From Clostridia bacterium (GTDB taxonomy: Bacteria; Bacillota; Clostridia; Oscillospirales; CAG-272), in NCBI GenBank assembly GCA_017522795.1, contig JAFWXZ010000035.1:1-34028 (forward strand): a DNA stretch of 34,028 nt, read 5' to 3'. Under the pieces are notes generated by a model that saw nothing but the letters and a program-made list of their open reading frames with translations, searched no databases and was not told the DNA's origin. A program made the translations under genes and the position numbers. Numbering within the stretch: position 1 is the stretch's first letter; each line of letters opens with the position of its first letter. This document shows, piece by piece, positions 1 through 22,220 of the stretch.

Positions 1-369
1 GTTGCGGCTCTCGGACACACCGAGGTCGTTGACGCGGCGGTAGCAGCAACCTGTACCGAGGCTGGTAAGACAGAGGGCAAGCATTGCTCCGTATGTAATA
101 CCGTTCTCGTAGCACAGGAAACCGTTGCGGCTCTCGGACACACCGAGGTCGTTGACGCGGCAGTAGCGGCAACCTGTACCGATGCTGGTAAGACAGAGGG
201 CAAGCATTGCTCCGTATGTAATACCGTTCTCGTAGCGCAGGAAACCGTTGCGGCTCTCGGACACACCGAGGTTGTTGATGCGGCAGTAGTAGCAACCTGT
301 ACCGAGGCTGGTAAGACAGAGGGCAAGCACTGCTCCGTATGTAACGAGGTGCTCGTAGCTCAGGAGGAG
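1..369 (+). repeat. Three tandem 123-bp coding repeats
   Basis: Units at 1-123, 124-246 and 247-369 each encode 41 residues and differ at only a few bases, for example the GAG/GAT codon after the first Cys and the GTC/GTT codons after the GHTE motif. The first unit may not be the first of the array because the window starts inside the gene. There is no spacer, so this is an in-frame protein repeat and not a CRISPR array. Confidence 0.95.
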
Positions 370-600
370 ATCAAGGCAAAGGGACACAGCTTCGCAGAGG
401 GCAAGTGCTCTGTATGCGGCGCAGCAGATCCCGATTACGTTGAGCCCAAGCCCGACGATCAGCAGAAGCCCGATAACCAGGAGCCCGAGCAGCCCGAGGA
501 GGAGCTTGGCTTCTTCGAGGCAATCTGGAAGGCTATCGTAGACTTCTTCAAGTCTATCGGCGACTTCTTCGCAGGCCTCTTTGGCGGAAATAAAAAATAA
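1..600 (+). CDS. C-terminal part of a secreted Cys/His-repeat protein (5' partial)
   Basis: This frame is open from the left edge to the stop at 598-600, so the start codon and any signal peptide lie outside the window. The visible 199 residues begin with three 41-residue repeats, each with a GHTEV segment and a C-x10-C-x2-C pattern (CTEAGKTEGKHCSVC). A shorter Cys motif follows (GKCSVCGAADPDY), then a Pro/Asp/Gln/Glu linker, then a C-terminal amphipathic segment with paired Phe (LGFF, DFF, DFF, LFGG) ending in NKK. The Cys/His repeats resemble those common in secreted proteins of gut Clostridia; metal binding is an inference. The last about 50 residues are nearly identical to those of the protein at 4190-5956, so it belongs with the next three genes. 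The internal GTG at 349 is not a credible start because the repeats run through it. No catalytic function can be assigned. Confidence 0.85.
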   Translation, partial: VAALGHTEVVDAAVAATCTEAGKTEGKHCSVCNTVLVAQETVAALGHTEVVDAAVAATCTDAGKTEGKHCSVCNTVLVAQETVAALGHTEVVDAAVVATCTEAGKTEGKHCSVCNEVLVAQEEIKAKGHSFAEGKCSVCGAADPDYVEPKPDDQQKPDNQEPEQPEEELGFFEAIWKAIVDFFKSIGDFFAGLFGGNKK

Positions 601-625
601 TAACAAAGTTTAAATAAAGCTTTTT

Positions 626-656
626 GAGGGGCGCACATCGCGCCCCTCATTTTTTT
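626..656 (+). terminator. Intrinsic terminator
   Basis: A perfect 9-bp GC-rich stem (GAGGGGCGC at 626-634 with GCGCCCCTC at 640-648), a 5-nt loop and a T-run end the transcript of the first gene. Confidence 0.93.
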
Positions 657-720
657 AACATATCAAAAAAATGAACATTATTCAGGTTCCACATCAAAAA
701 AACAAAGATTTTTAAAATCT

Positions 721-782
721 TTTTTGTCAAAATATATGAAACTATTTGTAAAAATTTGACAAAAAAGAGATTTTGACAAAAA
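721..782. repeat. 13-bp inverted repeat in the AT-rich upstream region
   Basis: TTTTTGTCAAAAT at 721-733 is the exact reverse complement of ATTTTGACAAAAA-type sequence at 770-782, and a further TTTGACAAAAA copy lies between them near 755-765. The repeats sit just upstream of the promoter of the 861-4007 gene. They could be an operator, or simply AT-rich sequence with duplicated TTGACA-like hexamers. Confidence 0.5.
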
Positions 783-787
783 TTATA

Positions 788-816
788 TTGTAAACAATTA
801 ACAAATATGATATAAT
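788..816 (+). promoter_or_regulatory. Promoter of the 1048-residue secreted protein gene
   Basis: TTGTAA (788-793), a 17-nt spacer and an extended -10 TGA-TATAAT (808-816). The layout matches the promoters at 4117 and 6061 upstream of the two following paralogues. A TTGACA at 773-778 is too far away (32 nt) to pair with this -10. Confidence 0.72.
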
Positions 817-860
817 TACATTAGCGTAGCTTAAAATTTTAATAAAGAAAGGAATTTATT

Positions 861-3800
861 ATGAAGCACACACGCAAAATTCTTATTGCTCTCCTTTTGG
901 TTATGACTCTTATGGTGAGCATGGCAACAATCTTTGCGAGCGCAGCTGAAACACCTGAAAAGCTTTACCTTACTCCCAATGCAAATTGGAAGAAGGATGG
1001 CGCTCGTTTCGCTGCTCGTTTTTGGACTAACACTCCTTCGTTTAGCGAACAGTGGGTTGATATGAAAGACCCCGATGGTGATGGCATCTATGAGTGCCAG
1101 ATCCCCGAAGGAATGGAATTTGTTATCATTTGTAGAATGAATCCTGGTAATGCAGCTAACGGCTGGGATAATAAGTGGAATCAGACATCTGACCTTACTC
1201 TTCCTACCAATGGTACTAATCATTACATAGTTAAGGAAGATACTTGGGATAACGGTGGCGGAAACTGGGCTACATATGGTTCTACTTGCCTTCACACTAA
1301 TCTTGGTGATGCTGCAACCTGTACCACTCCTCAGATCTGCCTTGATTGTAAGGACCCCGTAGTTTCTGCTCTTGGTCATGCCTTTAATGAGGCTCACCTT
1401 TGCACCAGATGTAACGTACAGGCATCCTTCACCGTAGCAGGCTCTGGCGCGCATTTGGGTACCGAGTGGGATACTGGCAATACTGCAAACGATATGACCT
1501 ATGCTGATGGCGTTTATACTAAGGTATATGAGAACGTTGCAGCAGGCTCTTACGCATTCAAGGTTGTTCGTGATCACAGTTGGGGTACTGCATACCCCTC
1601 TGCCGACAAGGAATTTACCGTTGAGACCGCTGGTAGCACCGTAACTATCACACTCAAGGGTACCGAGGTAGAAATCGCTATTGAGGCTCCTCAGCCCGAG
1701 GCACCCGCTCACGTTAACACTCTTGCAGTTGGCGACACCAACAAGATCGTTATCGGCGACAGTGCGGTAGATAACGGTTATGGATTCCTTGTAGAGTCTG
1801 TTGTATTCGTAGCAACCGAGAAGGCTCACTATGAGTTCGCAGGCGAGGGTCTTACAATTCTCGTTTATGATTCCAGCATGAATAATCTTTGCGGTTTCAC
1901 TGGCAAGGCAGATCTCGAGGCAGGTACATATATTATCTGCATCGCAGCTAATACTCAGAACACCAAGGGCGAGTTTAACGTTGCGGTTACCAAGTCCGAG
2001 ATTAAGGAACCCGAGGCACCCGCTCCCGTAAAGCCTATTGTTAACATCTCTGATCTTACCATTGAAACTACAACCGACGCAGAGCTCGTTGAGGGCACTG
2101 GCATTTCTGCATCTGCAGGTCTTACCGTTGACGGAAACAAGAAGTCCATTGATGGCTTCGAGTTTACTAAGAGACTTAAGCTCGGCGGTACTATGAAGCT
2201 TGATGGCGAAGTAGTTAAGGCTGGTGTTAAGATCGTAGTTGACGGTCCTTCCAAGGTTATTGTTTACGGTATGGCTAGCAGCAGCAGCGCTACCGGTAGA
2301 ACCCTTCACCTTGCTACCATCGTTGATGGCAAGCTTGTTTCCGTTGAGGGCAGTGACTCTGGAGAAGTAGGCGGTGCAGCGATTGCAAAGTATGAATTCG
2401 CAATCAGCGAAGCAGGTACATACTATCTTGGTAGTACCGATAGCGGTATCAACCTTTACTACATCGCAGTAGAAGAGGTTGAAGCACCCGCTCATGTTAA
2501 CACCCTCGTAGTTGGCGACACCAACAAGATCGTTATCGGCGACACCGCAGTAGATAACGGTTACGGCTACCTTGTAGAGTCCGTTCTCTTCACAGCAACC
2601 GAGAGCGCTCACTATGAGTTCGTAGGCGAAGGTCTTACTATTCTCGTTTATGACGCTAAGATGAATAACCTTTGCGGCTTCACCGGTAAGGCAAATCTCG
2701 AGGCAGGTACATACATTATCTGCATCGCAGCTAATACCCAGAACACTAAGGGCGAGTTCAACGTTGCAGTTAAGAAGGCGGCTTGGAATAACACTCTCGC
2801 TATAGGCGATAATAAGGTTCTTATCACCGCAATTGATAACGGCGCTGGCTATTACATCGCATGGGCACCCTTCGAGGTTACCGAGAAGGCTAACTATACC
2901 TTCACTGGCGATGGCATCCTTGCTCTTGTTTACGACTCCGCAAATCAGCTTGTTTCCGGCACAGAGCTTGATGTTGGAACATACAATATTTGCGTAGCAT
3001 TCCTTACTCCCGCAACCACAGGTATTGCACCCGTTAAGGTTGAAAAGACACCTCTCGCAGATACTCCCGTAGTAGAGGAGCCCACTCTTGCACTCGGTGA
3101 CAACACCGTTACTATCGACGGCTCTGAGACCAACCTTGCAGGCACAGCAGTTGCTTGGCACACCTTCACTCCCGCTGAGGATGGTACTTACAAGTTCTCT
3201 TGCGATGAGCTCACCGTATACATTCTTTCTTCTAAGAATATGGCAGACGGAACTGCATACATCGGTGCTGACGGTGTAGCTGAACTTAAGGCTGACACCA
3301 AGTACTACGTGCTTGTTGGTAAGGATGGCGTTAAGGGCGAGTTCACCGTTAAGGTTGAAAGCGGCGCAGCTCCCGTTCATGTTAATACCATTGTAGTTGG
3401 TGACAATAAGTACATCATCTCTGACGCTCTTCTTAAGACTGAGTATGAGTTCCTTCTCATTGAGATCACTGAGGCTGGTATTTACAAGTTCACCGGCGGT
3501 GCTCCCATGACTCTCTTCGTATTCCATGATGCATACGTAGGTGAGGCTCTTGATAAAACCGCTCCTTATACCGACAACGTTGACGACATCACTTACGAGT
3601 ACGTTGATCACTTCTACGTAAATCTCGCAGCTCCCGGCTACTACTGGGTAGGCTTCAGATATGACTACGTAGGCGAGCTCAGAGAGTTCGACATCAACGT
3701 AGCTCTCCACAGCGAGCACACCTTCGCAGAGGGTAAGTGCACCGAGTGTGGCGCAGCAGATCCCAACTACGTACCTCCTCATGAGCATAAGTTCGTAGAG

Positions 3801-4007
3801 GGCAAGTGCGAGTGCGGCGAAACCGATCCTAACTACGTTGCTCCCGAGCAGCCCAAGCCCGAAGATCCTAAGCCCGAGGAGCTTGGCTTCTTCCAGATGA
3901 TCCTGAAGGCAATTACCGACTTCTTCGCTAAGGTTGGCAACTTCTTCAGCGGCATCTTCGGCAAGATCGGCGGCTTCTTCTCCGGTCTTTTCGGTGGCAA
4001 TAAGTAA
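861..4007 (+). CDS. Secreted multi-module starch-binding-like protein, non-catalytic (1048 aa)
   Basis: A signal peptide (residues 1-29, cleavage near FASA-A) is followed by a CBM26-like module with the WNQT-type signature (about 34-147), a Cys/His segment (148-187), an X25-like pullulanase-associated domain (about 189-274), a PPC-like beta-sandwich repeat (about 281-378), a different beta-sandwich module like those attached to clostridial pectate lyases (about 394-540), and four more PPC-like repeats (about 542-950). The first two PPC-like repeats are near-identical. Then come two short Cys motifs, a Pro/Glu/Lys linker and a long Phe-rich C-terminal tail (about 1010-1048) in which the FF...LFG motif occurs twice. 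No hydrolase domain, LPXTG motif, SLH domain, dockerin or basic-tailed membrane anchor is visible. The ATG at 861 has an AAGAAAGGAA ribosome site. The domain names come from recognition of pattern, not a search. I infer extracellular starch or glucan binding. Confidence 0.85.
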   Translation: MKHTRKILIALLLVMTLMVSMATIFASAAETPEKLYLTPNANWKKDGARFAARFWTNTPSFSEQWVDMKDPDGDGIYECQIPEGMEFVIICRMNPGNAANGWDNKWNQTSDLTLPTNGTNHYIVKEDTWDNGGGNWATYGSTCLHTNLGDAATCTTPQICLDCKDPVVSALGHAFNEAHLCTRCNVQASFTVAGSGAHLGTEWDTGNTANDMTYADGVYTKVYENVAAGSYAFKVVRDHSWGTAYPSADKEFTVETAGSTVTITLKGTEVEIAIEAPQPEAPAHVNTLAVGDTNKIVIGDSAVDNGYGFLVESVVFVATEKAHYEFAGEGLTILVYDSSMNNLCGFTGKADLEAGTYIICIAANTQNTKGEFNVAVTKSEIKEPEAPAPVKPIVNISDLTIETTTDAELVEGTGISASAGLTVDGNKKSIDGFEFTKRLKLGGTMKLDGEVVKAGVKIVVDGPSKVIVYGMASSSSATGRTLHLATIVDGKLVSVEGSDSGEVGGAAIAKYEFAISEAGTYYLGSTDSGINLYYIAVEEVEAPAHVNTLVVGDTNKIVIGDTAVDNGYGYLVESVLFTATESAHYEFVGEGLTILVYDAKMNNLCGFTGKANLEAGTYIICIAANTQNTKGEFNVAVKKAAWNNTLAIGDNKVLITAIDNGAGYYIAWAPFEVTEKANYTFTGDGILALVYDSANQLVSGTELDVGTYNICVAFLTPATTGIAPVKVEKTPLADTPVVEEPTLALGDNTVTIDGSETNLAGTAVAWHTFTPAEDGTYKFSCDELTVYILSSKNMADGTAYIGADGVAELKADTKYYVLVGKDGVKGEFTVKVESGAAPVHVNTIVVGDNKYIISDALLKTEYEFLLIEITEAGIYKFTGGAPMTLFVFHDAYVGEALDKTAPYTDNVDDITYEYVDHFYVNLAAPGYYWVGFRYDYVGELREFDINVALHSEHTFAEGKCTECGAADPNYVPPHEHKFVEGKCECGETDPNYVAPEQPKPEDPKPEELGFFQMILKAITDFFAKVGNFFSGIFGKIGGFFSGLFGGNK
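1701..1994 (+). repeat. Copy 1 of a 294-bp intragenic duplication
   Basis: This stretch encodes the first PPC-like module and matches 2484-2777 at the same length with scattered, mostly third-position differences. Both copies begin with GCACCCGCTCA and end inside the AVTK/AVKK codons. Confidence 0.88.
2484..2777 (+). repeat. Copy 2 of a 294-bp intragenic duplication
   Basis: Second copy of the module at 1701-1994. The two are separated by a different beta-sandwich domain, so the duplication is dispersed and not tandem. Confidence 0.88.
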
Positions 4008-4025
4008 TTGCTGATTTAACTTTAT

Positions 4026-4056
4026 AGAGAGGCGCATTTTGCGCCTCTCTTTTTTT
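4026..4056 (+). terminator. Intrinsic terminator
   Basis: A perfect 10-bp stem (AGAGAGGCGC at 4026-4035 with GCGCCTCTCT at 4041-4050), a 5-nt loop and a T-run follow the 861-4007 gene. Confidence 0.93.
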
Positions 4057-4116
4057 CATTATTAATAATATGCTTTGTTTATTTTGCACAAAAAACAGAT
4101 AACTTCAAAAACAGTA

Positions 4117-4145
4117 TTGTATTCTTTTCACCTCTGTGTTATAAT
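4117..4145 (+). promoter_or_regulatory. Promoter of the 588-residue secreted protein gene
   Basis: TTGTAT (4117-4122), a 17-nt spacer and an extended -10 TGT-TATAAT (4137-4145). It is almost superimposable on the promoter at 6061-6089, including the shared TATTGTATT at the -35 and TGTTATAAT at the -10. Confidence 0.78.
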
Positions 4146-4189
4146 AAATTAGTTAGTCAATAACTAAATTAATAAGGAAGGATAATTCT

Positions 4190-5956
4190 ATGAAAAACAC
4201 ACGCAAAATCCTGGTTTCTCTTATCCTCGTTCTTGCGATGATAATGAGCCTTGCTACTGTCACCGCCTTTGCGGCAGACGAGGCAGAACAGACCAGAACC
4301 ATCTATTTCACCAATAATCAGGGCTGGACCAAGGTGAATGCATATTATTGGAGCTCCGGCAGCAATCCTGTGGCTTGGCCCGGCGCTGCTATGGAAAAGG
4401 ATAGCACCAATGACTACGGTCAGGATATCTATGCTATCAGCATCCCTGCATCCACCGAAAACATTATCTTCAATAACGGCTCCGAACAGACCGTTGACAT
4501 CAAGCTTAACACTGCTGTAAACGGATACTATCTCACGGAAAAGAATGCTTCGGGTAAGTGGGGCGTTGGTACCTGGAACAATAATCCCGACGGCTGCAAT
4601 CACTCTCCCGAGGGCGAGGCTATCGAGTCTGTTGCAGCAACCTGCACAGAGGACGGCTCCAATACCTATAAGTGCTCCAAGTGCGGCGAGAACTATACCG
4701 AGGTCGTAATGGCGGCAGGCCATAAGTATGAGAATGGCAAGTGTACCGTTTGTAAGGCTGTTCCTACCTTCACCGTCGCAGGTGTTAAGGAGCTTTGCGG
4801 CACCGCTTGGGATACCGGCAATACCGCAAACGATATGACCTACGACGAGACTACAGGTACATATTCCAAGACCTACGAGAATCTTCCCGCAGGCACCTAT
4901 TCCTTTAAGTGCGTACAGGATCACGATTGGAATCCCAGCTACGGCGGAGTAGGCGAGACCGCTGATAAGGATGGCAATTTCGTTGTCACCCTCACCGGAG
5001 AGACTAACACTCTCACCATTACCCTTACAGGCACCACCGTTTCTGTTAAGGTTGGTGATGTGACTACCGACGATCCTACCGACGATCCTACCGACGATCC
5101 TACCGATGATCCTACAGATGATCCCACTGACACTCCCGTAGCCACCGATTATTATCTTGTCGGTTATATCAACGGCGCTAACTACGGCTGCGACGACGAT
5201 TACCAGAATCTCGGTGATTACAAGTTCGTAGACGGCAAGGTCACCGCTACCTTTAACGAGGGAAGCTATGTATTCGTTAAGACAGGCGATAACGCTAAGT
5301 GGTATATGACTGAGGGGTGGCTTGGCACCGAGGTTACCGAGGCTATTCTTTATGATAGCTCTATTGGTCTCACCGAGGCTAACAAGCTTCATGTTCCCGG
5401 CGGTGTTGAGGTCGAGTTTACCCTCACCGTAAACGAGGACGGCACCCTTACTCTCAGCTATGAGGTAAAGGGCGGCACAACTCCTGATCCCAAGCCCGAG
5501 ACTCCTCCCACATTCACCGTTGCTGGTACAGGCGCTCATCTCGGTACCGAGTGGGATACCACTAACACCGCAAACGATATGACCTATGCTGACGGCGTAT
5601 ACACTAAGGTGTATACAAACGTTAAGGCAGGCGATTACGCCTTCAAGTGCGCTAAGGATCATGCATGGGACGTTGCATATCCCGCTGAGGATTATAAGTA
5701 CACCGTTGATGCGGACGGCAGCACCGTAACCATTACCTTTGATGGCGAGAACGTTGAGGTCGACGTTACTGCTCCCGCTGCACCCAAGCCCGACGATCAG
5801 CAGAAGCCCGACGATCAGCAGAAGCCCGATAACCAGGAGCCCGAGCAACCCGAGGAGGAGCTTGGCTTCTTCGAGGCAATCTGGCAGGCAATTCTCGACT
5901 TCTTCAAGTCCATTGGCGACTTCTTCGCAGGTCTTTTTGGCGGCTCTGAAGAATAA
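4190..5956 (+). CDS. Secreted starch-binding-like protein with CBM26 and two X25-like domains (588 aa)
   Basis: A signal peptide (1-28, cleavage near AFA-A) precedes a good CBM26-type starch-binding module (about 35-127) with the aromatic pattern expected of that family: YFTNNQGW, YYWSS, AWPG and IIFNNG...QT. A Cys/His segment follows (134-190), then an X25-like domain (191-290), a TDDP-repeat linker (about 292-316), and a YYLVGYINGANYG-type module of the sort seen in clostridial amylolytic proteins (318-428). A second X25-like domain (441-530), close in sequence to the one in the 861-4007 product, leads to a Pro/Asp/Gln linker and the Phe-rich tail (LGFF, DFF, DFF, LFGG). There is no catalytic domain. 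The ATG at 4190 follows AAGGAAGGA. The role as an extracellular starch-binding protein is inferred from the modules. How it stays on the cell, if it does, is unknown; the tail is the obvious candidate. Confidence 0.87.
   Translation: MKNTRKILVSLILVLAMIMSLATVTAFAADEAEQTRTIYFTNNQGWTKVNAYYWSSGSNPVAWPGAAMEKDSTNDYGQDIYAISIPASTENIIFNNGSEQTVDIKLNTAVNGYYLTEKNASGKWGVGTWNNNPDGCNHSPEGEAIESVAATCTEDGSNTYKCSKCGENYTEVVMAAGHKYENGKCTVCKAVPTFTVAGVKELCGTAWDTGNTANDMTYDETTGTYSKTYENLPAGTYSFKCVQDHDWNPSYGGVGETADKDGNFVVTLTGETNTLTITLTGTTVSVKVGDVTTDDPTDDPTDDPTDDPTDDPTDTPVATDYYLVGYINGANYGCDDDYQNLGDYKFVDGKVTATFNEGSYVFVKTGDNAKWYMTEGWLGTEVTEAILYDSSIGLTEANKLHVPGGVEVEFTLTVNEDGTLTLSYEVKGGTTPDPKPETPPTFTVAGTGAHLGTEWDTTNTANDMTYADGVYTKVYTNVKAGDYAFKCAKDHAWDVAYPAEDYKYTVDADGSTVTITFDGENVEVDVTAPAAPKPDDQQKPDDQQKPDNQEPEQPEEELGFFEAIWQAILDFFKSIGDFFAGLFGGSEE
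5066..5137 (+). repeat. Six 12-bp tandem repeats encoding a TDDP linker
   Basis: Three exact ACCGACGATCCT units (5066-5101) are followed by three diverged ones up to 5137. They encode Thr-Asp-Asp-Pro, a flexible acidic linker, and are a likely site of slipped-strand length change. Confidence 0.93.
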
Positions 5957-5968
5957 AATAAAACTGTA

Positions 5969-5996
5969 CCCCGCGCCACGTCGGCGCGGGGTTTTT
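5969..5996 (+). terminator. Intrinsic terminator
   Basis: A perfect 9-bp GC stem (CCCCGCGCC at 5969-5977 with GGCGCGGGG at 5983-5991) and five T residues follow the 4190-5956 gene. Confidence 0.93.
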
Positions 5997-6060
5997 ACTA
6001 AAACTTTAACAAAAGCATTTGTATAAATTTAACAAAAAAATAAATTTCTTTGATAGCATA

Positions 6061-6089
6061 TTGTATTATTTCCCAACTCATGTTATAAT
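6061..6089 (+). promoter_or_regulatory. Promoter of the 405-residue secreted protein gene
   Basis: TTGTAT (6061-6066), a 17-nt spacer and an extended -10 TGT-TATAAT (6081-6089). Third member of the shared promoter set. Confidence 0.78.
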
Positions 6090-6134
6090 GTATAAGAGTT
6101 ATTATAAATATTTAAAAGGAAAGGAATACATATT

Positions 6135-7352
6135 ATGAAGAAAACTTCTAATAAGATTATTCTTGCTATCATTCTTACCTTTACTATGCTTATTGGTCTG
6201 GTATCGGTTACTGCCTTTGCTGCAGACGGAACCACCGTATATCTTGAGCCCGGTGCTGAATGGCTTTCCGACGGTGCTACCTTTGCGGTGTACTATTGGA
6301 CAGGCGATACCGATAACGGTTGGGTTAAGATGACTGATGAGGGTGACGGTATTTATAAGGCTGTCGTTCCTGCAGGCTATTCAAACATTATTTTCGTAAG
6401 ACTTGATCCCTCTGCATCCGAGCCTAGTTGGGAGGCAAAGTGGAATCAGACTATCGATCTTACCATTACCGAGGATTCGGACACCTTTACTATTACCGAT
6501 GCCTGGGGCGGAACAGGTACCTGGGCAAGCGGCGCTGAGATCGGCGGTGGTAGCACCGGCGGTGACGGCGAGGGCGGCGATGTCGTAATCGACAGCACCG
6601 ATGGTGTTAGCAGCTATACCGTAGCCGGTGTTGCAGCTCTTTGCGGCTCTGACTGGGCTCCCGCAGATACTGCCAACGATATGGTTTACAATACTACCAC
6701 CAAGCTTTATGAGAAGACCTTTACAGGTATTCCCGCAGGCACCTATCAGTTCAAGGTTGCTGCAGATCACGGTTGGGACCGTTCCTGGGGTGATCCCGTA
6801 AACGGCGTTGGTCAGTTCGGTACAGACTATCAGATCATTCTTGAGGAAGAGCAGAACGTTACCATTACCTTCGATCCCGCTACCGCAACCGTAGGCTACA
6901 AGCTTTCCGCATCCACGGGCCCCTCCGAGAATCTCCCCGCAGCAGGCCTTGAGGCAGATACCGTTGTTTACCTTGACAACGCGGCAGGCTGGGATACTCC
7001 CTACATCTACTGCTGGGGCGGAGATTACAACGCAATGACCTGGCCCGGTGAGATGATGGACTATGATGAGGAGCTCGGTCTCTACTACGCTACCGTTTCC
7101 GAGGGTACTACAGGCGTTATCTTCAACGATGGCAATGGCACTCAGACCAAGGATATCGTTGTTATGCCCACACCCCAGAACAGCCTTTACGTAAACGACG
7201 ATCTTCAGAGCGACTTCGTTGTTAATCCCCACTACGCAGATCCTACTCCCGAGGAGCCCGCAGGTATGACCTGGCTCCAGGAGATCGCATATGGCATCCT
7301 TCTCTTCTTGAGAAGCATCGAGGACTTCTTTAAGGGACTCTTCGGCGGCTAA
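6135..7352 (+). CDS. Secreted protein with two CBM26-like and one X25-like domain (405 aa)
   Basis: A signal peptide (1-30, cleavage near AFA-A) is followed by a CBM26-like module of the WNQT type (about 33-135), similar to the first module of the 861-4007 product. A Gly/Asp-rich linker leads to an X25-like domain (about 157-258), then a second CBM26-like module (about 275-358) with YCWGG, TWPGEMM and GVIFNDGNGTQT. The C-terminus (about 378-405) is a divergent version of the shared tail: the LGFF start is replaced by MTWLQEI and the middle is more hydrophobic, but IEDFFKGLFGG is kept. No hydrolase domain is present. The ATG at 6135 has an AAAGGAAAGGAA ribosome site. It is a paralogue of its upstream neighbours with its own promoter and terminator. 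Starch binding is inferred from the module pattern. Confidence 0.86.
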   Translation: MKKTSNKIILAIILTFTMLIGLVSVTAFAADGTTVYLEPGAEWLSDGATFAVYYWTGDTDNGWVKMTDEGDGIYKAVVPAGYSNIIFVRLDPSASEPSWEAKWNQTIDLTITEDSDTFTITDAWGGTGTWASGAEIGGGSTGGDGEGGDVVIDSTDGVSSYTVAGVAALCGSDWAPADTANDMVYNTTTKLYEKTFTGIPAGTYQFKVAADHGWDRSWGDPVNGVGQFGTDYQIILEEEQNVTITFDPATATVGYKLSASTGPSENLPAAGLEADTVVYLDNAAGWDTPYIYCWGGDYNAMTWPGEMMDYDEELGLYYATVSEGTTGVIFNDGNGTQTKDIVVMPTPQNSLYVNDDLQSDFVVNPHYADPTPEEPAGMTWLQEIAYGILLFLRSIEDFFKGLFGG

Positions 7353-7426: not shown

Positions 7427-7897
7427 TTATTTAACGTAAACCTTCTTCATTCTCATAGCGATCTTAGGTCTGTCGCTGTAGTCAGTGGGAATAGAAGCGA
7501 TCTCGTCAACCACATCCATACCGCTTACAACCTTGCCAAATGCCGCGTAGTGACCGTCAAGGTGGGGTGCATTCGCGTGCATAATAAAGAACTGTGATGA
7601 TGCGGAGTTTGGCGCGCTTGCTCTTGCCATTGAAATAACACCTCGGGTGTGCTTTACGGGATTGTCAAATCCATTTGCCTTAAATTCGCCGAAGATATTT
7701 TCCTTTGAGCCGCCCATGCCGTTGCCGAGGGGATCGCCGCCCTGGATCATAAAGCCGGGGATCACTCTGTGGAAGATAAGTCCGTCGTAGAAGCCCTCTC
7801 CCACAAGTTTCAAGAAGTTTGCCACAGTCTTGGGCGCGGTCTCAGGGTATAGCTCAAGCTCGATCTCGCCGCCGTTTTCCATTTCAATTACTACCAT
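7427..7897 (-). CDS. Cyclophilin-type peptidyl-prolyl cis-trans isomerase
   Basis: At 156 residues this is a single minimal cyclophilin domain that isomerises Xaa-Pro bonds during protein folding. The active-site signature FHRVIPGFMIQGGDP (42-56) contains the catalytic Arg44 and Gln52, and SSQFFI (100-105) supplies the hydrophobic pocket. The position of the human cyclophilin A Trp appears to be Leu in PHLDG, as in many bacterial members. There is no signal peptide, so it should be cytoplasmic. The ATG at 7897 is preceded by AAGGAGAAA, which fixes the start. The gene stands alone, divergent from the YtvI-like gene and convergent with the secreted-protein cluster. A general folding role is likely and no specific client is indicated. 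Confidence 0.95.
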   Translation of the reverse strand: MVVIEMENGGEIELELYPETAPKTVANFLKLVGEGFYDGLIFHRVIPGFMIQGGDPLGNGMGGSKENIFGEFKANGFDNPVKHTRGVISMARASAPNSASSQFFIMHANAPHLDGHYAAFGKVVSGMDVVDEIASIPTDYSDRPKIAMRMKKVYVK

Positions 7898-14059: not shown

Positions 14060-14899
14060 ATGGAACAATCAAAGCTGCTCAGCCTCTCGCGTGTTGCGAA
14101 TCAGATACGTATCAACATCATAGAGGCGGTCTACAATGCTAAATGCGGTCATCCCGGTGGATCTCTTTCCATAGCCGAGATAATGACCTACCTCTATTTT
14201 GAGGAAATGAATATAGATCCCAAAAATCCAAAGGATCCCCTCCGCGACAGATTCGTGCTGTCAAAGGGACATACTGCTCCTGCTCTTTACGCCACCCTGG
14301 CAGAGCGTGGATATTTTCCCAGAGAGGATCTCAAGACCTTGAGAAAGACCTCGTCCTATCTTCAGGGACACCCCGATATGAAGAGCGTTCCGGGCGTTGA
14401 TATGAGCACTGGCTCTCTCGGTCAGGGCATATCCGCAGCCTGCGGTATGGCTCTTTCATCCAAGCTTGACGGTAATCCTTACCGCGTTTACACCGTTCTT
14501 GGCGACGGTGAGAGCGAGGAGGGACAGGTTTGGGAGGCAGCTATGTTTGCCGCCCACTATAAGCTTGACAATCTCGTGGCTATCCTCGATCTTAACGGTC
14601 TGCAGATCGACGGTCCTATTACCGAGGTTATGAACCCCACTCCCCACGATGAAAAGTTCCGCGCCTTTGGCTGGAACGTTATTACCATAGACGCTCATAA
14701 TTTTGATGAGATCGAGGCGGCACTGAAAAATGCCAGAGCCACCGAGGGTAGACCTACCGCTATTATCGCAAGATCGGTAAAGGGCAAGGGTGTTTCCTAT
14801 ATGGAAAACGCTTGTGAGTGGCACGGTCAGGCTCCCAAGGAGGATCTCTATAAGGTTGCTATCAGCGATCTTGAAAAAATAGCAGAAACACTTAAGTAA
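14060..14899 (+). CDS. Transketolase, N-terminal (TPP-binding) subunit
   Basis: At 279 residues this is the first half of a split transketolase. It binds thiamine diphosphate and, with the next gene's product, moves two-carbon ketol units in the non-oxidative pentose phosphate pathway. Visible family features are KCGHPGGSLSIAE (about 29-41), LSKGHTAPALYA, the GSLGQGISAACG loop and the TPP/Mg motif GDGESEEGQ...N (about 152-180). The ATG at 14060 has AAGGAG 7 nt upstream. The partner starts 16 nt after the stop. The split form is common in Clostridia and archaea. Its place at the head of a pyrH-frr operon, where rpsB-tsf would be expected, is unusual. Confidence 0.95.
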   Translation: MEQSKLLSLSRVANQIRINIIEAVYNAKCGHPGGSLSIAEIMTYLYFEEMNIDPKNPKDPLRDRFVLSKGHTAPALYATLAERGYFPREDLKTLRKTSSYLQGHPDMKSVPGVDMSTGSLGQGISAACGMALSSKLDGNPYRVYTVLGDGESEEGQVWEAAMFAAHYKLDNLVAILDLNGLQIDGPITEVMNPTPHDEKFRAFGWNVITIDAHNFDEIEAALKNARATEGRPTAIIARSVKGKGVSYMENACEWHGQAPKEDLYKVAISDLEKIAETLK

Positions 14900-14914
14900 G
14901 GATTGGTGAAGCAA

Positions 14915-15868
14915 ATGGCAGAAAGAAAGGCAACCAGAGATGGTTTTGGCGCGGCTCTTGCCGAGCTTGGCGAAAAGTATGATTTTCTTGTTCTTGACGC
15001 GGACCTTGCGGCCGCAACCAAGACGGGTATGTTTAAAAAGAAATTTCCCGACAGATTTTTCGACTGCGGTATCGCGGAGGGAAATATGATGGGCGTTGCG
15101 GCAGGACTTGCAGCCACTGGAAAAAAGGTGTTTGCGGCAAGCTTTGCAATGTTCTCGGCAGGCAGATCCTACGAGCAGATCAGAAATTCCATCGGATATC
15201 CCCATCTTAACGTTAATATAGTAGGCACCCACGCCAGCATCACCGTAGGTGAGGACGGCGCTACACACCAGTGCAACGAGGACCTTGCGCTTATGCGTAA
15301 TATCCCCGGTATGACGGTTATCTGTCCTGCCGATGCTACCGAGGCGTTTGCTGCGGTAGAGGCTGTCCTTAATCACGACGGTCCCTGTTATCTGAGATTC
15401 GGCAGATATCCCGTTCCCAACCTCACCCCCGAGCTTTTACCCGACTACAAGTTTGAGATAGGTAAGGGCATAGTTTATCGAGAGGGAAGCGACGTCACCA
15501 TCGTTGCCAACGGCTATATGGTGCATCTTGCGCTTGAGGCAGCAGATATTCTTAAGTCTGAGGGCATCTCGGCTGAGGTTATAAATATCCACACCTTCAA
15601 GCCCTTTGATGCTGAGCTTGTCGTAGCATCTGCAAAGAAAACAGGTGCTATCGTCACCGCCGAGGAGCATAGCATTAAGGGCGGTCTCGGTTCTGCGGCT
15701 TGTGAGGCTGTCTGCGAGAAATATCCCGTTCCCGTTCTCCGCGTCGGCGTGGAGGATAAATTCGGCAGAAGCGGTCAGGTGCCCGAGCTTCTCGAGCTTT
15801 ACGGACTTACCGCCGAGAATATTGCGGCTAAGGCAAGGTTTGCAATCTCAATGAAGTCGTCTAAATAA
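14915..15868 (+). CDS. Transketolase, C-terminal subunit
   Basis: The 317-residue protein carries the pyrimidine-binding and C-terminal domains of transketolase. DADLAAATKTGMF and FDCGIAEGNMMGVAAGLA (about 49-66) include the Glu expected to activate the TPP aminopyrimidine ring. GEDGATHQCNEDLALMRNIP and PCYLRFGR are also typical. I place the start at ATG 14915, which has GGTGA 5 nt upstream; an in-frame TTG at 14903 would add four residues and is weaker. The protein acts in the cytoplasm as a complex with the upstream gene product. A related dihydroxyacetone- or DXP-synthase-like activity cannot be excluded from sequence, but the split layout favours transketolase. Confidence 0.94.
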   Translation: MAERKATRDGFGAALAELGEKYDFLVLDADLAAATKTGMFKKKFPDRFFDCGIAEGNMMGVAAGLAATGKKVFAASFAMFSAGRSYEQIRNSIGYPHLNVNIVGTHASITVGEDGATHQCNEDLALMRNIPGMTVICPADATEAFAAVEAVLNHDGPCYLRFGRYPVPNLTPELLPDYKFEIGKGIVYREGSDVTIVANGYMVHLALEAADILKSEGISAEVINIHTFKPFDAELVVASAKKTGAIVTAEEHSIKGGLGSAACEAVCEKYPVPVLRVGVEDKFGRSGQVPELLELYGLTAENIAAKARFAISMKSSK

Positions 15869-15915
15869 CGGAATATCCGACTAAAATACAGTTGCAGAAA
15901 AGAGAGGATATAAAA

Positions 15916-16614
15916 ATGAAGCGTATTTTACTTAAGCTGTCCGGTGAGGCTCTTGCCGGCGCGAATAAAGAAATATATGATATGACCTTCGTTGATAAGG
16001 TTGCCGCGGCGATCAAGGAGTGTGCCGATAAGGGACACGAGCTTGCGGTCGTTGTTGGCGCAGGTAACATATGGCGCGGCAGAGCGGGCGGTGATATGGA
16101 TCGCACCGATGCTGACCGTATGGGTATGCTTGCCACCGTTATCAACGCCATCTGCCTAAAGGATGCGCTCACACGCGTGGGTGCCGAGGCTGTGGTTATG
16201 ACCGCGATTCCCATGCACCCCTTTGCCGAGAGCTATTCATCCCAGGCGGCGAAGGAGGCTCTCTCTGCAGGTAAGGTTGTCGTTTTCGGCGCAGGCCTCG
16301 GCATTCCCTTCCTGTCTACCGATACTGCGGGCGCTGTCAGAGCGGCTGAGATCGAGGCTGACGCTATCCTTATGGCGAAAAACGTCGATTACATCTACGA
16401 TGACGATCCCAGAAAGAATTCTAAGGCCAAGCCTATCAAGCAGATCAAGGCATCCGAGGTTCTTGCGAGAAATCTTCAGGCTATGGACGCTACCGCTACC
16501 GCCTTCTGTCTGTCTGCGGGTATGCCCGTAAAGCTCTTTGGACTTAAAGCTGCTGAGGATATCGTGAGTGCGGTCACCGAGGGTAAGTGCGGTACCGTTA
16601 TCAGCGCGGAATAA
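15916..16614 (+). CDS. pyrH: Uridylate kinase (UMP kinase)
   Basis: UMP kinase phosphorylates UMP to UDP with ATP, feeding pyrimidine nucleotide and UDP-sugar synthesis. The 232-residue protein has the amino-acid-kinase start KRILLKLSGEAL (2-13), the VVVGAGNIWRG loop (about 45-55), the UMP-binding region DADRMGMLATVINA (about 64-77) and the late LMAKNVDYIYDDDPRKN segment. I chose ATG 15916, which begins the conserved domain and is preceded by AGAGAGGA; upstream ATG codons in frame would add eight residues. It lies 47 nt after the transketolase subunit with no terminator between, and directly before frr as in most Firmicutes. The upstream tsf gene usual in this neighbourhood is missing. Confidence 0.97.
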   Translation: MKRILLKLSGEALAGANKEIYDMTFVDKVAAAIKECADKGHELAVVVGAGNIWRGRAGGDMDRTDADRMGMLATVINAICLKDALTRVGAEAVVMTAIPMHPFAESYSSQAAKEALSAGKVVVFGAGLGIPFLSTDTAGAVRAAEIEADAILMAKNVDYIYDDDPRKNSKAKPIKQIKASEVLARNLQAMDATATAFCLSAGMPVKLFGLKAAEDIVSAVTEGKCGTVISAE

Positions 16615-16665
16615 TTATGTACATAAAATTAATATAATAAATATAACTGAAAGGTGTATAATGAT

Positions 16666-17220
16666 ATGAAGCTTGACACTAAATTCTATGAAGAAAAAAT
16701 GAAGAAGACGATCCACTCCTACTCGGAGAATCTTTCTACCATCAGAGCAGGAAGAGCAAATCCTGACGTACTTAAGAAGATCGCTGTTGATTACTACGGC
16801 TCTCCCACACCCATCTCCTCTATCGCGGAGATCAAGGTGACCGATGCTCGTACTCTTACCATCACCGCTTGGGATAAGTCCATTATGAAGGGCATTGAGA
16901 AGGCTATTCTCACCTCCGATCTTGGCATTAATCCTCAGAACGACGGTAGCTGCATCCGCCTTTCCTTCCCCCCTATGACCGAGGAGCGCAGAAAGGATCT
17001 CTCCAAGCAGATCTCCAAGATGGGCGAGGATGCGAAGGTTGCAGTTCGTAACATCCGCCGCGACGCTAACGATAAGATCAAGGCTGATAAGAAGAACTCC
17101 GTAATGACCGAGGATGAGGCAAAGCAGTCTGATAAGCTTGTTCAGGACCTTACCGATAAGTTCATCAAGGAGATTGATGGCATTACAGCAACTAAGACTA
17201 AGGAAATAATGGAGATTTAA
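16666..17220 (+). CDS. frr: Ribosome recycling factor
   Basis: RRF splits post-termination ribosomes together with EF-G. At 184 residues it has the family's normal length and its hallmarks: the helix with LSTIRAGRANPDVL (about 27-40), YYGSPTPISSIAEI, the NDGSCIRLSFPPMTEERRKDL segment given here only as a landmark around residues 90-110, and a C-terminal helix running to the end. The ATG at 16666 has GAAAGGTG 9 nt upstream; the GTG at 16654 lies within that ribosome site and is rejected as a start. It sits 51 nt after pyrH and 24 nt before uppS. Confidence 0.97.
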   Translation: MKLDTKFYEEKMKKTIHSYSENLSTIRAGRANPDVLKKIAVDYYGSPTPISSIAEIKVTDARTLTITAWDKSIMKGIEKAILTSDLGINPQNDGSCIRLSFPPMTEERRKDLSKQISKMGEDAKVAVRNIRRDANDKIKADKKNSVMTEDEAKQSDKLVQDLTDKFIKEIDGITATKTKEIMEI

Positions 17221-17244
17221 GATCTCACGAAAGAGGGTTACTCG

Positions 17245-17976
17245 TTGAGTAAGTTAAAGGATACCTCTGTTGAGGGGAATAATAAAATAAACTCCGTTGC
17301 CATAATTATGGACGGCAACGGCAGATGGGCAAAGAAAAGAGGACTTTCGCGCACCGAGGGGCATCGGGCGGGGGCAAAGGTTATTTCAACCGTTATTAAG
17401 CTATTTCGTGAATACGGCGTTCATCATCTGACTCTCTACGCCTTTTCTACTGAGAATTGGAAAAGACCGAGGGAGGAGGTAGATGCAATAATGGAGCTTA
17501 TCTATTTCTATATTGACGAGCACGTGATCCCCGCAATAAAGGAGCAGGGAGATCTATGCGTTAAATTTATAGGTGACAAGTCTGCTCTCCCCAAAAGCCT
17601 GCGTGAAAAGTGTATAGAAGCGGAGGAGCTTGCAAAGGATAGACCCTTCGTATGCAACGTTGCGCTGAATTACGGCGGCAGGGATGAGATAATCCACGCC
17701 GCAAACCGCGCTATAGCCGATGGACATACCTTGCTTTCCGAGGAGCTTTTATCTCGCTATATGTACACTTATCCATCTCCCGATCCCGATATGATAATCA
17801 GGACGGGGGGCGACCTGCGTATATCCAATTTTCTCCTGTGGCAGAGCGCGTATTCAGAGCTTATAGTCATTGATACCCTATGGCCCGACTTTAGTAGATC
17901 AGACGTTGACAGATGCGTGACTGAATATTTTTCAAGGCACCGCAGATTCGGCGGTCTTGATCCCGAGGACCAGTAA
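17245..17976 (+). CDS. uppS: Undecaprenyl diphosphate synthase (cis-prenyltransferase)
   Basis: UppS extends farnesyl diphosphate with isopentenyl diphosphate to undecaprenyl diphosphate, the lipid carrier for peptidoglycan and other surface polymers. The 243-residue protein shows AIIMDGNGRWAKKRG (about 19-33; catalytic Asp23), GHRAGAKV, TLYAFSTENWKRP (about 63-75), NYGGRDEI and the terminal IRTGGDLRISNFLLWQSAY segment (about 184-202). The start is a TTG at 17245 with GAGGG about 8 nt upstream; there is no ATG before the catalytic motif other than the one inside it. The gene belongs to the isoprenoid and envelope part of the operon, and dxr and ispG downstream supply its precursors. Confidence 0.97.
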   Translation: MSKLKDTSVEGNNKINSVAIIMDGNGRWAKKRGLSRTEGHRAGAKVISTVIKLFREYGVHHLTLYAFSTENWKRPREEVDAIMELIYFYIDEHVIPAIKEQGDLCVKFIGDKSALPKSLREKCIEAEELAKDRPFVCNVALNYGGRDEIIHAANRAIADGHTLLSEELLSRYMYTYPSPDPDMIIRTGGDLRISNFLLWQSAYSELIVIDTLWPDFSRSDVDRCVTEYFSRHRRFGGLDPEDQ

Positions 17977-17998
17977 AGTGAGGCAATAACAAGTTAAA

Positions 17999-18844
17999 AT
18001 GAAAAACAGATTATTAACGTCAGCAGGAATTATATTTTTCGGTCTGCTGTTGGTTATCTTTTCAGAGCATATCGTATTCCCGATTGCTCTTGCGGCGCTT
18101 ACCGTTATCGCGTTGTTTGAAATACTTAGAGTTATGGGGACGCATAAGAAATGGGCGCTGTCTATCCCCGCCTATATTCTTGGCGCAGCATTCCCATCTC
18201 TTGCTTATTTTGTAAGGGGAGAGAATACTTTGGTATTTCTTCTCGCTTTGGCGGCAGCTATGTTCGTATATATGATGTGGCTTATGGCAGTCAGCGTGTT
18301 CTCAAAGGGAAATATTCCGTTTTCGCGTATATCCGAGGCATTCGTTGCGGTACTTTACGTCACCGTTTCCTTTACCTCGCTCTCTCTGATCAGATATCTT
18401 GACCGAAGCATTGGAGTATATTTCGTGGTTCTCCCCTTCGTGATCTCCTGGATCTGCGATGTTTTTGCATATTTCACGGGATCTCTTATCGGCAAGCATA
18501 AGCTGATACCGGAGGTCAGTCCGAAAAAGACCGTTGAGGGCGCGATCGGCGGCGTGGTATTTGCTGCTATTGCCTGCGCGGTATACGGCCTTGGTCTTGA
18601 TCTTTTCATCGCAGATATGAAGGTGAACTACTTGACCCTCGTTCTTTTCGGCTTGATTCTCTCGGTCGTATCCCAGCTTGGCGACCTTACTGCCTCGCTT
18701 ATTAAGCGCGAGTACGGTGTGAAGGATTACGGCAGAATTTTTCCCGGTCACGGCGGAATTATGGACAGATTTGACTCGGTCCTTGCGGTGTCCACCGTTC
18801 TACTTATACTTACGCTTATTTTTCCACCCTTTACACTCGCATGA
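17999..18844 (+). CDS. cdsA: Phosphatidate cytidylyltransferase (CDP-diglyceride synthase)
   Basis: CdsA makes CDP-diacylglycerol from phosphatidic acid and CTP, the branch point of phospholipid synthesis. The 281-residue protein has about eight hydrophobic segments and the family signature near the C-terminus: SPKKTVEGAIGGV (about 173-185), SQLGDLTASLIKRE and the RIFPGHGGIMDRFDS motif (about 245-259) with its metal-binding Asp. The ATG at 17999 lies 22 nt after the uppS stop. Its ribosome site is weak (GTGAGG, well spaced away), so translation may be coupled to uppS. A terminator-like hairpin follows directly, before dxr. Confidence 0.95.
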   Translation: MKNRLLTSAGIIFFGLLLVIFSEHIVFPIALAALTVIALFEILRVMGTHKKWALSIPAYILGAAFPSLAYFVRGENTLVFLLALAAAMFVYMMWLMAVSVFSKGNIPFSRISEAFVAVLYVTVSFTSLSLIRYLDRSIGVYFVVLPFVISWICDVFAYFTGSLIGKHKLIPEVSPKKTVEGAIGGVVFAAIACAVYGLGLDLFIADMKVNYLTLVLFGLILSVVSQLGDLTASLIKREYGVKDYGRIFPGHGGIMDRFDSVLAVSTVLLILTLIFPPFTLA

Positions 18845-18853
18845 CAATAAAGC

Positions 18854-18891
18854 GCCGCTCTTGCTTATACCATTAGGCAAGCGCGGCTTTT
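18854..18891 (+). terminator. Terminator-like hairpin between cdsA and dxr
   Basis: GCCGCTCTTGC (18854-18864) pairs with GCAAGCGCGGC (18877-18887) with one mismatch and a 12-nt loop, followed by four T. It lies only 15 nt before dxr, whose ribosome site (CGGAG) follows it. It may be a partial terminator or an RNA-processing site that tunes the downstream genes. Confidence 0.7.
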
Positions 18892-18906
18892 AATCCCGGA
18901 GCTTTT

Positions 18907-20055
18907 ATGACGAAAACAATTGCCGTTCTTGGCGCAACCGGCTCCGTCGGTATGCAATCTATCGACGTTGCCCGCCAAAGAGGATATAAAATAGACTTTT
19001 TCAGCGCGGGCAGAAACTCAGCCCTCGCCGAGCGACTTGCCCGTGAGATACGTCCCGCGGCGGTTGCTATGGCAGATATGCGCGCCGCCGCCGAGCTTAA
19101 ATACCGCCTGCGCGACACCTCTGTTAAGGTGCTTGCAGGTGAGGCAGGCATATGCGACGGAATAGCAGGTAGCTCTGCCGATACAGTGGTCAATGCCATA
19201 CTTGGTAAGGCGGGACTTGCCCCCACCCTCGCAACTATCGAGGCGGGGAAGCGGCTCGCCCTTGCAAACAAGGAATCGCTTGTTATCGCAGGTAACATCG
19301 TAATGAGTCACGCTCGTAAAATGGGCGTCAAGATCATTCCCGTTGACAGCGAGCATTCAGCCATATTCCAGTCGCTTCACGCAGGTCATCCTTCGGAGAT
19401 AAGGCGACTGATACTTACCGCATCGGGCGGACCGTTCTATGGAAAGAGCAGGGTAGAGCTTGAAAATATCACCCTTGCCGACACCCTTGCTCACCCCACC
19501 TGGAAAATGGGGAAAAAGATCACCGTAGATTCCGCCACCCTTATGAATAAGGGCTTTGAGATCATTGAGGCAGCCCATCTTTTTGGCGTCTCACCCGATA
19601 AGATAGAGGTGGTCATCCACCGCGAGAGCATACTGCACTCTGCCGTGGAATATATTGACAACAGTATTATAGGCGAGTTCTCTCTGCCCGATATGCGTAT
19701 GTGCGTTCAGTACGCCGTCGATTACCCCGAGAGATGTGAGAGTGCGGCTGCACCCCTTGATCTGTTTGCCCTTGGTAAAATGACCTTTGCAAAGCCGGAT
19801 ACATCGGCGTTTCCCCTGCTTGATATGGCGCGCCGCGCCTACTTCGCGGGTGGGGCCTGCCCCGCAGTGCTGAATGCCGCCGACGAGGTAGCCGTAGCCG
19901 CATTCCTTGAGGAGAAAATCCGCTTTGCCGACATACCCCGCGTCGTAATGAACACCTACGATATGATGGGTGGCGCAAGATATGCCACCTCGCTTTCGGA
20001 TATCCTCGCCGCCGACAAGGAGGCAAGAAGGATAGCCGAGGGTTATATAAAATAA
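18907..20055 (+). CDS. dxr: 1-deoxy-D-xylulose 5-phosphate reductoisomerase
   Basis: Dxr converts DXP to MEP with NADPH, the first committed step of the MEP isoprenoid pathway. The 382-residue protein starts with the NADPH-binding motif AVLGATGSVGMQSID (about 5-19) and has LANKESLVIAG (about 119-129), the PVDSEHSAIFQ metal-binding region (about 147-157), the flexible-loop SGGPFYG segment, HPTWKMGKKITVDSATLMNK (about 198-217) and HRESILHSAVEY. All expected catalytic regions are visible. The ATG at 18907 has CGGAG 5 nt upstream. A hairpin lies between it and cdsA. The pathway partner ispG lies two genes downstream. Confidence 0.97.
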   Translation: MTKTIAVLGATGSVGMQSIDVARQRGYKIDFFSAGRNSALAERLAREIRPAAVAMADMRAAAELKYRLRDTSVKVLAGEAGICDGIAGSSADTVVNAILGKAGLAPTLATIEAGKRLALANKESLVIAGNIVMSHARKMGVKIIPVDSEHSAIFQSLHAGHPSEIRRLILTASGGPFYGKSRVELENITLADTLAHPTWKMGKKITVDSATLMNKGFEIIEAAHLFGVSPDKIEVVIHRESILHSAVEYIDNSIIGEFSLPDMRMCVQYAVDYPERCESAAAPLDLFALGKMTFAKPDTSAFPLLDMARRAYFAGGACPAVLNAADEVAVAAFLEEKIRFADIPRVVMNTYDMMGGARYATSLSDILAADKEARRIAEGYIK

Positions 20056-20073
20056 ATTTCAGGAGAAAAACAG

Positions 20074-21114: not shown

Positions 21115-21118
21115 AAAT

Positions 21119-22195: not shown

Positions 22196-22220
22196 TAAGC
22201 AGGTAAAACAGGAGTAGAAA

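Follow-up and report, generated by a model that had tools for sequence, protein, structure and literature searches.

A Phe-rich amphipathic C-terminal tail on secreted glycan-active proteins of a Clostridia lineage, a probable in-plane membrane anchor

Four adjacent open reading frames (ORFs) at the start of a 34,028-nucleotide stretch of DNA from a Clostridia bacterium (GenBank assembly GCA_017522795.1, contig JAFWXZ010000035.1, positions 1 to 34,028; hereafter the window) encode proteins with a common Phe-rich C-terminal tail, and the same tail closes unrelated secreted proteins elsewhere in the genus. The tail is amphipathic as a helix and is closely similar to the C-terminus of some low-molecular-weight penicillin-binding proteins (LMW-PBPs). 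Given that one helix is shared by many unrelated proteins and closely matches a tail known to stick to membranes, it probably tethers the window proteins to the cell. We consider it likely that this C-terminal helix anchors proteins in the plane of the membrane (a monotopic anchor) and that it serves glycan-active exoproteins as a portable module for display. How gut Clostridia that have neither sortase nor dockerins retain their fibre-degrading enzymes is not obvious. In what follows, G, L and C labels denote genomes, fetched sequence stretches and contigs, respectively; the source genome (G000) comprises 1.65 Mb in 81 contigs, is 78% complete, and contains the window as bases 1-34028 of contig C39.

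A common tail at the end of unrelated secreted proteins

The last 30-43 residues of the four window proteins align, and the corresponding tails are encoded on the forward strand at 499..597 (ORF1), 3876..4004 (ORF2), 5852..5953 (ORF3) and 7251..7349 (ORF4). In order to assess this similarity, profiles built from three tails at a time were searched against all 877 six-frame window segments of at least 20 amino acids, and in every case the fourth tail was recovered, with E values of 2.4e-19, 2.3e-9, 3.5e-17 and 3e-4, the last belonging to ORF4, which has the most divergent tail of the four; the best unrelated segment scored 0.065. A first-pass annotation of the window had reported a tail common to the four adjacent products, and this is borne out. 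The pattern that it gave is complete in tails 1 and 3, as DFF-x5-FF-x2-LFGG, and is departed from in the other two: tail 2 reads NFFSGIFG and has an additional, inserted 11-residue repeat (KIGGFFSGLFG), and tail 4 starts MTWL and has the second DFF only, the first Phe pairs being missing. Likewise, the Phe pairs do not recur at a plain interval of seven residues as had been described, since the spacing in tails 1-3 is 11 and 7 residues, but both intervals do place the pairs on approximately the same face of a helix. An acidic Pro-rich linker precedes the tail in three of the four proteins, as annotated, that of ORF4 being short.

The tail is nearly always terminal. Across the window plus 18 fetched stretches, ORFs matched at E ≤ 5 number 29, and 27 of them carry it 0-14 residues from the stop codon, the other two being noise. 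A profile of 28 genus tails (A2), from which weaker matches of an earlier profile (A1) that are not C-terminal tails were left out (for example G121:C138, G015 and G005), gave 37 matches in the genus at E ≤ 1e-4, 35 of them C-terminal and two internal in large proteins (G048 and G001). However, 28 of these 37 built the profile and match by construction, so the fair test is the other nine, seven of which are C-terminal. Further tails in the source genome lie on contigs C47, C74, C10 and C17 (two), and C7 holds a variant in which the tail is followed by a Cys-x-Cys pair. In L116, L118, L120 and L214, a variant tail has the helix, a short Cys-x-Cys-Gly segment and then the stop, with ends such as LFGMAEKCVCGDELE. 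The tail on contig C10 (L040, approximately 5,566-5,640) lies in a 54-residue frame overlapping the end of a 938-residue frame with a signal-like start, and the PDPTPDPD repeat linker of that longer frame runs out of frame, a frame break within the linker repeat that is either real or an assembly error. A metagenome-assembled genome (MAG) from goat rumen (L091) also bears the tail. Beyond the genus, A2 at E ≤ 1e-3 found the tail in three further genera of the family (four of 146 genomes, its own included); of the five family matches, four are unmistakable C-terminal tails, G251:C19 being the exception. The tail is rare outside the genus. In another family of the order, five tandem tail-like matches occur within one 1072-residue frame (G121:C138:40224-40784).

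Tail proteins are secreted proteins of many kinds. By a crude, home-made test, a signal-like start is present in 23 of the 24 tail proteins whose N-terminus could be read, compared with 28 of the 115 other ORFs in these stretches (Fisher p 3e-11); the start of the single miss (L041:9108-12272) may be wrong. A Pfam scan of 36 genus and family tail proteins, with L045:2097-3203, L055:5055-5780 and the frame-broken L040 gene left out, identified an informative family in 31. Starch modules (CBM26 and/or X25) are found in ten, Pectate_lyase_4 with CBM77 in six, GHL10 in five and a Pel9A-like or other right-handed beta-helix in four, whereas alpha-L-rhamnosidase, GH95, Cthe_2159, CotH, Metallophos and Endonuclease_1 are represented by one protein each. 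Three of the remainder have no family and two (ORF1 and L046) have Cys-repeat-type matches only. The tail is therefore independent of substrate. This range across the genus and three further genera agrees with the proposal of a common targeting or attachment module, and the tail is not confined to the four window paralogues; such confinement is what the first-pass annotation had named as counting against its proposal. The argument from differing binding modules within the window was overstated, because ORFs 2-4 all have starch-related Pfam modules (CBM26, X25) and so differ less than claimed; the real carrier diversity lies elsewhere in the genus.

An amphipathic helix resembling carboxypeptidase anchors

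The hydrophobic moment exceeds that of a tail's own shuffles at p<0.05 in all 28 genus tails and at p<0.01 in 23 of them, and the mean moment peaks near 100 degrees per residue. A moment of at least 0.6 together with a hydrophobicity of at least 0.4 is reached by 28/28 tails, compared with 1/116 control C-termini (four controls had no scorable window). The same thresholds are passed by the C-termini of 12/12 LMW-PBPs and 11/11 DUF1002 proteins, both sets having been picked by tail searches. The polar-free arc of the helix averages 252 degrees, 13-14 of the last 31 residues of the four window proteins are bulky and hydrophobic, and it is the hydrophobic positions that are conserved. The 33-residue tail of ORF1 is modelled as one helix (residues 2-29) with a mean predicted local distance difference test (pLDDT) score of 87, in keeping with the helix first proposed for it. 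Over the 28 tails the maximum 19-residue Kyte-Doolittle mean is 1.44, indicating that this is no ordinary transmembrane helix, and a transmembrane reading was rejected. We also looked for a solved structure of the tail and rejected the candidates, as a PDB search with profile A4 returned two matches at chance level only, the best being an antimicrobial peptide at E 1.6.

Profile A4 holds, in addition to genus tails, five LMW-PBP and DUF1002 rows, and consequently its result in the class, where 17 of 19 genomes other than the own one were matched on Peptidase_S11 (S11) or DUF1002 proteins, is partly circular. The search was therefore repeated with a profile of genus tails only (A3), which at E ≤ 1e-3 matched 11 of 390 class genomes other than the own one, five on S11, three on DUF1002 and the remaining three (G290, G624 and G538) in frames of 57-60 residues that are probably chance; 19 more genomes with A3 E values of 1e-3 to 1e-2 are not counted here, some of those read being S11 or DUF1002 proteins and others not being tails. 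Genomes of named species, in which 331 stretches fit a DNA pattern of the tail, yielded 16 loci confirmed with A3, and these 16, which our results cover, all lie at the C-terminus of an open frame. Five of them fall outside the tail lineage and comprise a D-Ala-D-Ala carboxypeptidase (DacA) of Holzapfeliella and four DUF1002 proteins, from Staphylococcus, Lentilactobacillus, Streptococcus and a Clostridiaceae MAG.

Reported work on E. coli PBP5 describes an amphipathic helix, made up of its last 18 residues, by which the protein is kept on the outer side of the inner membrane; once these residues are removed, PBP5 becomes soluble and for the most part mislocalised (PMC2909392). LMW-PBPs of other families end in sequences closely similar to the tail, such as AGFFEIIWRAIITFFRSLFQ (L147) and LGFFENLWQRITSFFSNLFK (L198), with similar moment and hydrophobicity. 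The possibility that the tail is a plain copy of the LMW-PBP anchors of its own genus was rejected, as there is no full tail in the 15 best-scoring and 20 second S11 copies of the genus or in either copy of the source genome. Given this, the tail may resemble LMW-PBPs of other families so closely through convergence on the same physical device. In the source genome the S11 copy on C14 passes the moment and hydrophobicity thresholds and that on C63 ends in a short stub, GFFEKILSIFD; an S11 copy of G022 ends in a short related-looking stub, GLFNKILSIFD. Among best-scoring S11 copies of other families, two of 15 C-termini pass. The second copies of the genus (L218-L237) are highly variable at the C-terminus, some having short FF-type stubs and several no amphipathic end. 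DUF1002 (PF06207) proteins of Firmicutes share a C-terminal or near-C-terminal core of the type FFxxIxxAIxxFFxxLF, which is followed by 20-60 residues in L152 (about 25), L163 and L164. Their similarity to the tail suggests that DUF1002 proteins of several Firmicutes (for example L146, L150 and L154) may be membrane-bound too, by the same device as LMW-PBPs. Unlike these, none of the 36 scanned tail proteins matches DUF1002, to which Pfam assigns no function.

Proposed role and alternative explanations

Membrane binding, assembly of the proteins with each other and recognition by a dedicated export or attachment system had all been offered as functions of the tail, and the first is the best supported, by the helix periodicity, the wide non-polar face and the close similarity to the anchors of LMW-PBPs from other families. 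We propose that a carrier would be exported by the Sec pathway and its signal peptide cleaved, and that the Phe-rich amphipathic helix of 20-30 residues would be the last part to emerge on the outside of the cytoplasmic membrane, where its wide non-polar face would sink into the outer leaflet. The linker of Pro, Asp and Glu would keep the starch-, pectin- or other glycan-active modules off the membrane while they stay cell-bound. The tail would act like the C-terminal anchor of a D-Ala-D-Ala carboxypeptidase, but on exoenzymes and glycan-binding proteins, and in a genus without detected sortase. If this is true, an anchor of 20-30 residues that is recognisable in sequence would allow annotators to predict cell-bound exoenzymes in ruminant-gut bacteria that are uncultured, and the tail would be a compact display tag for use in harmless laboratory strains. 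A broader scenario, which we offer tentatively as possible rather than probable, is that in a ruminant-gut Clostridia lineage lacking detected sortase a greasy C-terminal helix has spread over glycan-active genes of unrelated kinds as an anchor that is portable and non-covalent, turning the exterior side of the cytoplasmic membrane into a shared platform for breaking down starch, pectin, rhamnosides and fucosides. Binding of this kind would be reversible and allow release or exchange, and it would amount to a third display strategy beside sortase and dockerin-cohesin attachment.

Several observations weigh against an in-plane anchor of general use. The weakest point is the short linkers (median 23.5 residues, range 0-92, by a crude measure), set against the need for a protein of 316-400 residues to reach starch through a thick wall. 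A clear tail is missing from most members of the genus: of 70 genomes, A2 matched 21 at E ≤ 0.01, and about 12 of these matches are convincing. At the level of the order, six of 394 genomes gave an A3 match at E ≤ 1e-3; one is its own, and the others are a tail protein (G153), an LMW-PBP (G121), two internal matches and one 38-residue frame. The LMW-PBPs of the genus itself have no full tail, and the moment and hydrophobicity thresholds are passed by one of the 15 best-scoring S11 copies and one of the 20 second copies (four of which stop early, approximately 244-249 residues from the match start, and one of which runs off its contig). Sortase is absent throughout the genus, so its absence does not track presence of the tail. 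A lipobox-like motif is found in one of the 24 tail proteins. Finally, the full-length model of ORF4 (m38c7c9e7adda) is poor, with a mean pLDDT of 54, and the C-terminal helix in it (residues 380-403) is of low confidence.

Rather than binding the membrane, the tails could pack together or with a partner helix, forming a surface complex of starch- and pectin-active proteins similar to an amylosome or cellulosome, without dockerins. The a/d-like hydrophobic spacing along the tail, the tandem arrangement of tail genes in the window locus, L042 and L044, and the repeats that lengthen the helix in ORF2 and L041 would all suit such an assembly module. However, the polar-free arc and the share of bulky hydrophobic residues exceed those of a usual coiled coil, and the same tail type is found on other-family LMW-PBPs and DUF1002 proteins; we think this explanation unlikely. 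Alternatively, the tail could bind an envelope component (lipoteichoic acid, teichoic acid or a wall-linked lipid) instead of the bilayer, as for Staphylococcus Sbi, there being a report of a surface protein that has none of the known anchor motifs and is kept at the envelope by binding lipoteichoic acid (PMC3378709). Net charge over the 28 tails ranges from -7 to +5 and there is no conserved basic patch, whereas the hydrophobic positions are conserved, making binding of this kind improbable.

The near-strict C-terminal position of the tail on many unrelated proteins is also what would be expected of a sorting signal processed by a dedicated export or anchoring enzyme. PEP-CTERM and GlyGly-CTERM are processed C-terminal sorting tails of this style. 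Yet the tail has no transmembrane-grade stretch, nothing like a conserved cleavage motif is seen in the alignments where the linker meets the helix, and for the four window proteins no NCBIfam match at E ≤ 1 overlaps the tail, hence no curated sorting-signal model. In addition, the tail is found on LMW-PBPs, of which the E. coli homologue is described as retaining its helix as an anchor, and we regard a processed signal as very improbable. Mere descent by tandem duplication, without selected function, would fit the starch-binding genes, a set of tandem paralogues occupying one fixed site where tail genes number one to four, but it is largely refuted by the presence of the tail on unrelated families and by five pectate-lyase orthologues, in which mean tail identity (70%) is above that of the linker (49%) and CBM77 (55%), the lyase domain standing at 89%, and in which 98 of the 164 base differences counted over all ten pairs in the core of the tail fall at third codon positions.

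The window locus and comparison with known attachment systems

All four tail genes are on the forward strand. ORF1 (1..600) is 5'-truncated at the contig edge, as C39 begins at window base 1, and consists of Cys-rich CxxC repeats (GHTEVVDAAVAATCTEAGKTEGKHCSVC), linker and tail; its Pfam matches are Cys-repeat, zinc-finger- or EGF-like only. Strings of Cys-rich repeats (approximately 40 residues, CTEAG...CxxC) lie ahead of linker and tail at window 1-420 and at L046:7402-10437, and the pectate-lyase orthologues have related repeats, variable in number, before the tail. ORF2 (861..4007, 1048 residues) is a secreted protein with an N-terminal Sec-type signal by the crude test and one X25 module at about 1461-1658 (Pfam E 1.1e-12). 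ORF3 (4190..5956, 588 residues), also secreted by the same test, has CBM26 at about 4301-4504 (E 2.7e-14), X25 in two stretches, the best at about 5546-5752 (E 3.8e-21), and a Pro/Asp linker. ORF4 (6135..7352), a secreted protein of 405 residues, has X25 at about 6642-6890 (E 3.3e-15) and CBM26 in two stretches, the best at about 6966-7157 (E 4.1e-18). Outside the tail module, a cyclophilin-type peptidyl-prolyl isomerase is encoded on the reverse strand at 7427..7897 (PF00160, E 7.7e-53). By eye, this gene keeps its place to the right of the cluster in L042, L043 and L044, where the starch-binding tail genes at this fixed site number four, one and at least two, respectively, and a HAD-phosphatase-like gene flanks the other side in L042 and L043. 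The starch-binding cluster expands and contracts, and the tails are retained. Housekeeping genes occupy window 14060-26642, including a split transketolase (14060-14899 and 14903-15868), DXP reductoisomerase (18907-20055) and a PolC-type DNA polymerase III (22221-26642).

The first-pass annotation found no LPXTG motif, SLH domain or dockerin in the four proteins, and our data agree, since a pattern check finds no LPXTG-like motif or lipobox and neither dockerin nor SLH is among their Pfam matches. LPXTG, dockerin and SLH anchoring in the source genome were each considered and rejected, with no sortase, dockerin or SLH detected in this 78% complete assembly. At E ≤ 1e-4, sortase is found in 0 of 37 same-genus genomes compared with 21 of 23 genomes that belong to the order's other families, 20 of which also exceed the curated cut-off (Fisher p 3e-14), and at the family level in 83 of 146 genomes, with 0 of 4 same-genus genomes among those listed (0 of 3 further ones). 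Because genomes of the genus sample lack sortase whether they bear the tail or not, this counts as permissive evidence and no more. Nine of the 37 same-genus genomes are positive for dockerin, and nine of 37 have one or two weak SLH matches.

A comparable system is the amylosome of Ruminococcus bromii (Sas20, Sca5), which also places secreted X25 starch-binding proteins on the surface of a gut Firmicute, and whose attachment is described as relying on dockerin-cohesin pairs and a scaffoldin, Sca5, with a sortase sequence (PMC9112005); neither dockerin nor sortase was detected in the source genome. In the literature searched we found no account of a tail-like anchor on exoenzymes, which is no proof of absence. 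The physical class is that of the in-plane membrane (IPM) anchors of monotopic proteins gathered in the AmphipaSeeK set, amphipathic helices that lie parallel to the interface; the set is described as holding 21 experimentally characterised proteins (PMC1564421), and these may include exoenzymes. Given that C-terminal amphipathic in-plane anchors are already known, calling the tail an undescribed system was too strong. A close parallel is the anchor of the LMW-PBPs DacA and PBP5 (Peptidase_S11 with PBP5_C), which like the tail is an amphipathic helix with paired aromatics at the extreme C-terminus of an exported protein. Unlike LMW-PBPs, the tail carriers bind or degrade polysaccharide and have no S11 or PBP5_C among the Pfam matches of the 36 proteins scanned. 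Their helix usually follows an acidic Pro-rich linker and often gains length from an extra 7- or 11-mer, and one genome can encode as many as about ten such proteins. The physical device itself is known, and the novelty seems to lie in its general use for displaying polysaccharide-active proteins.

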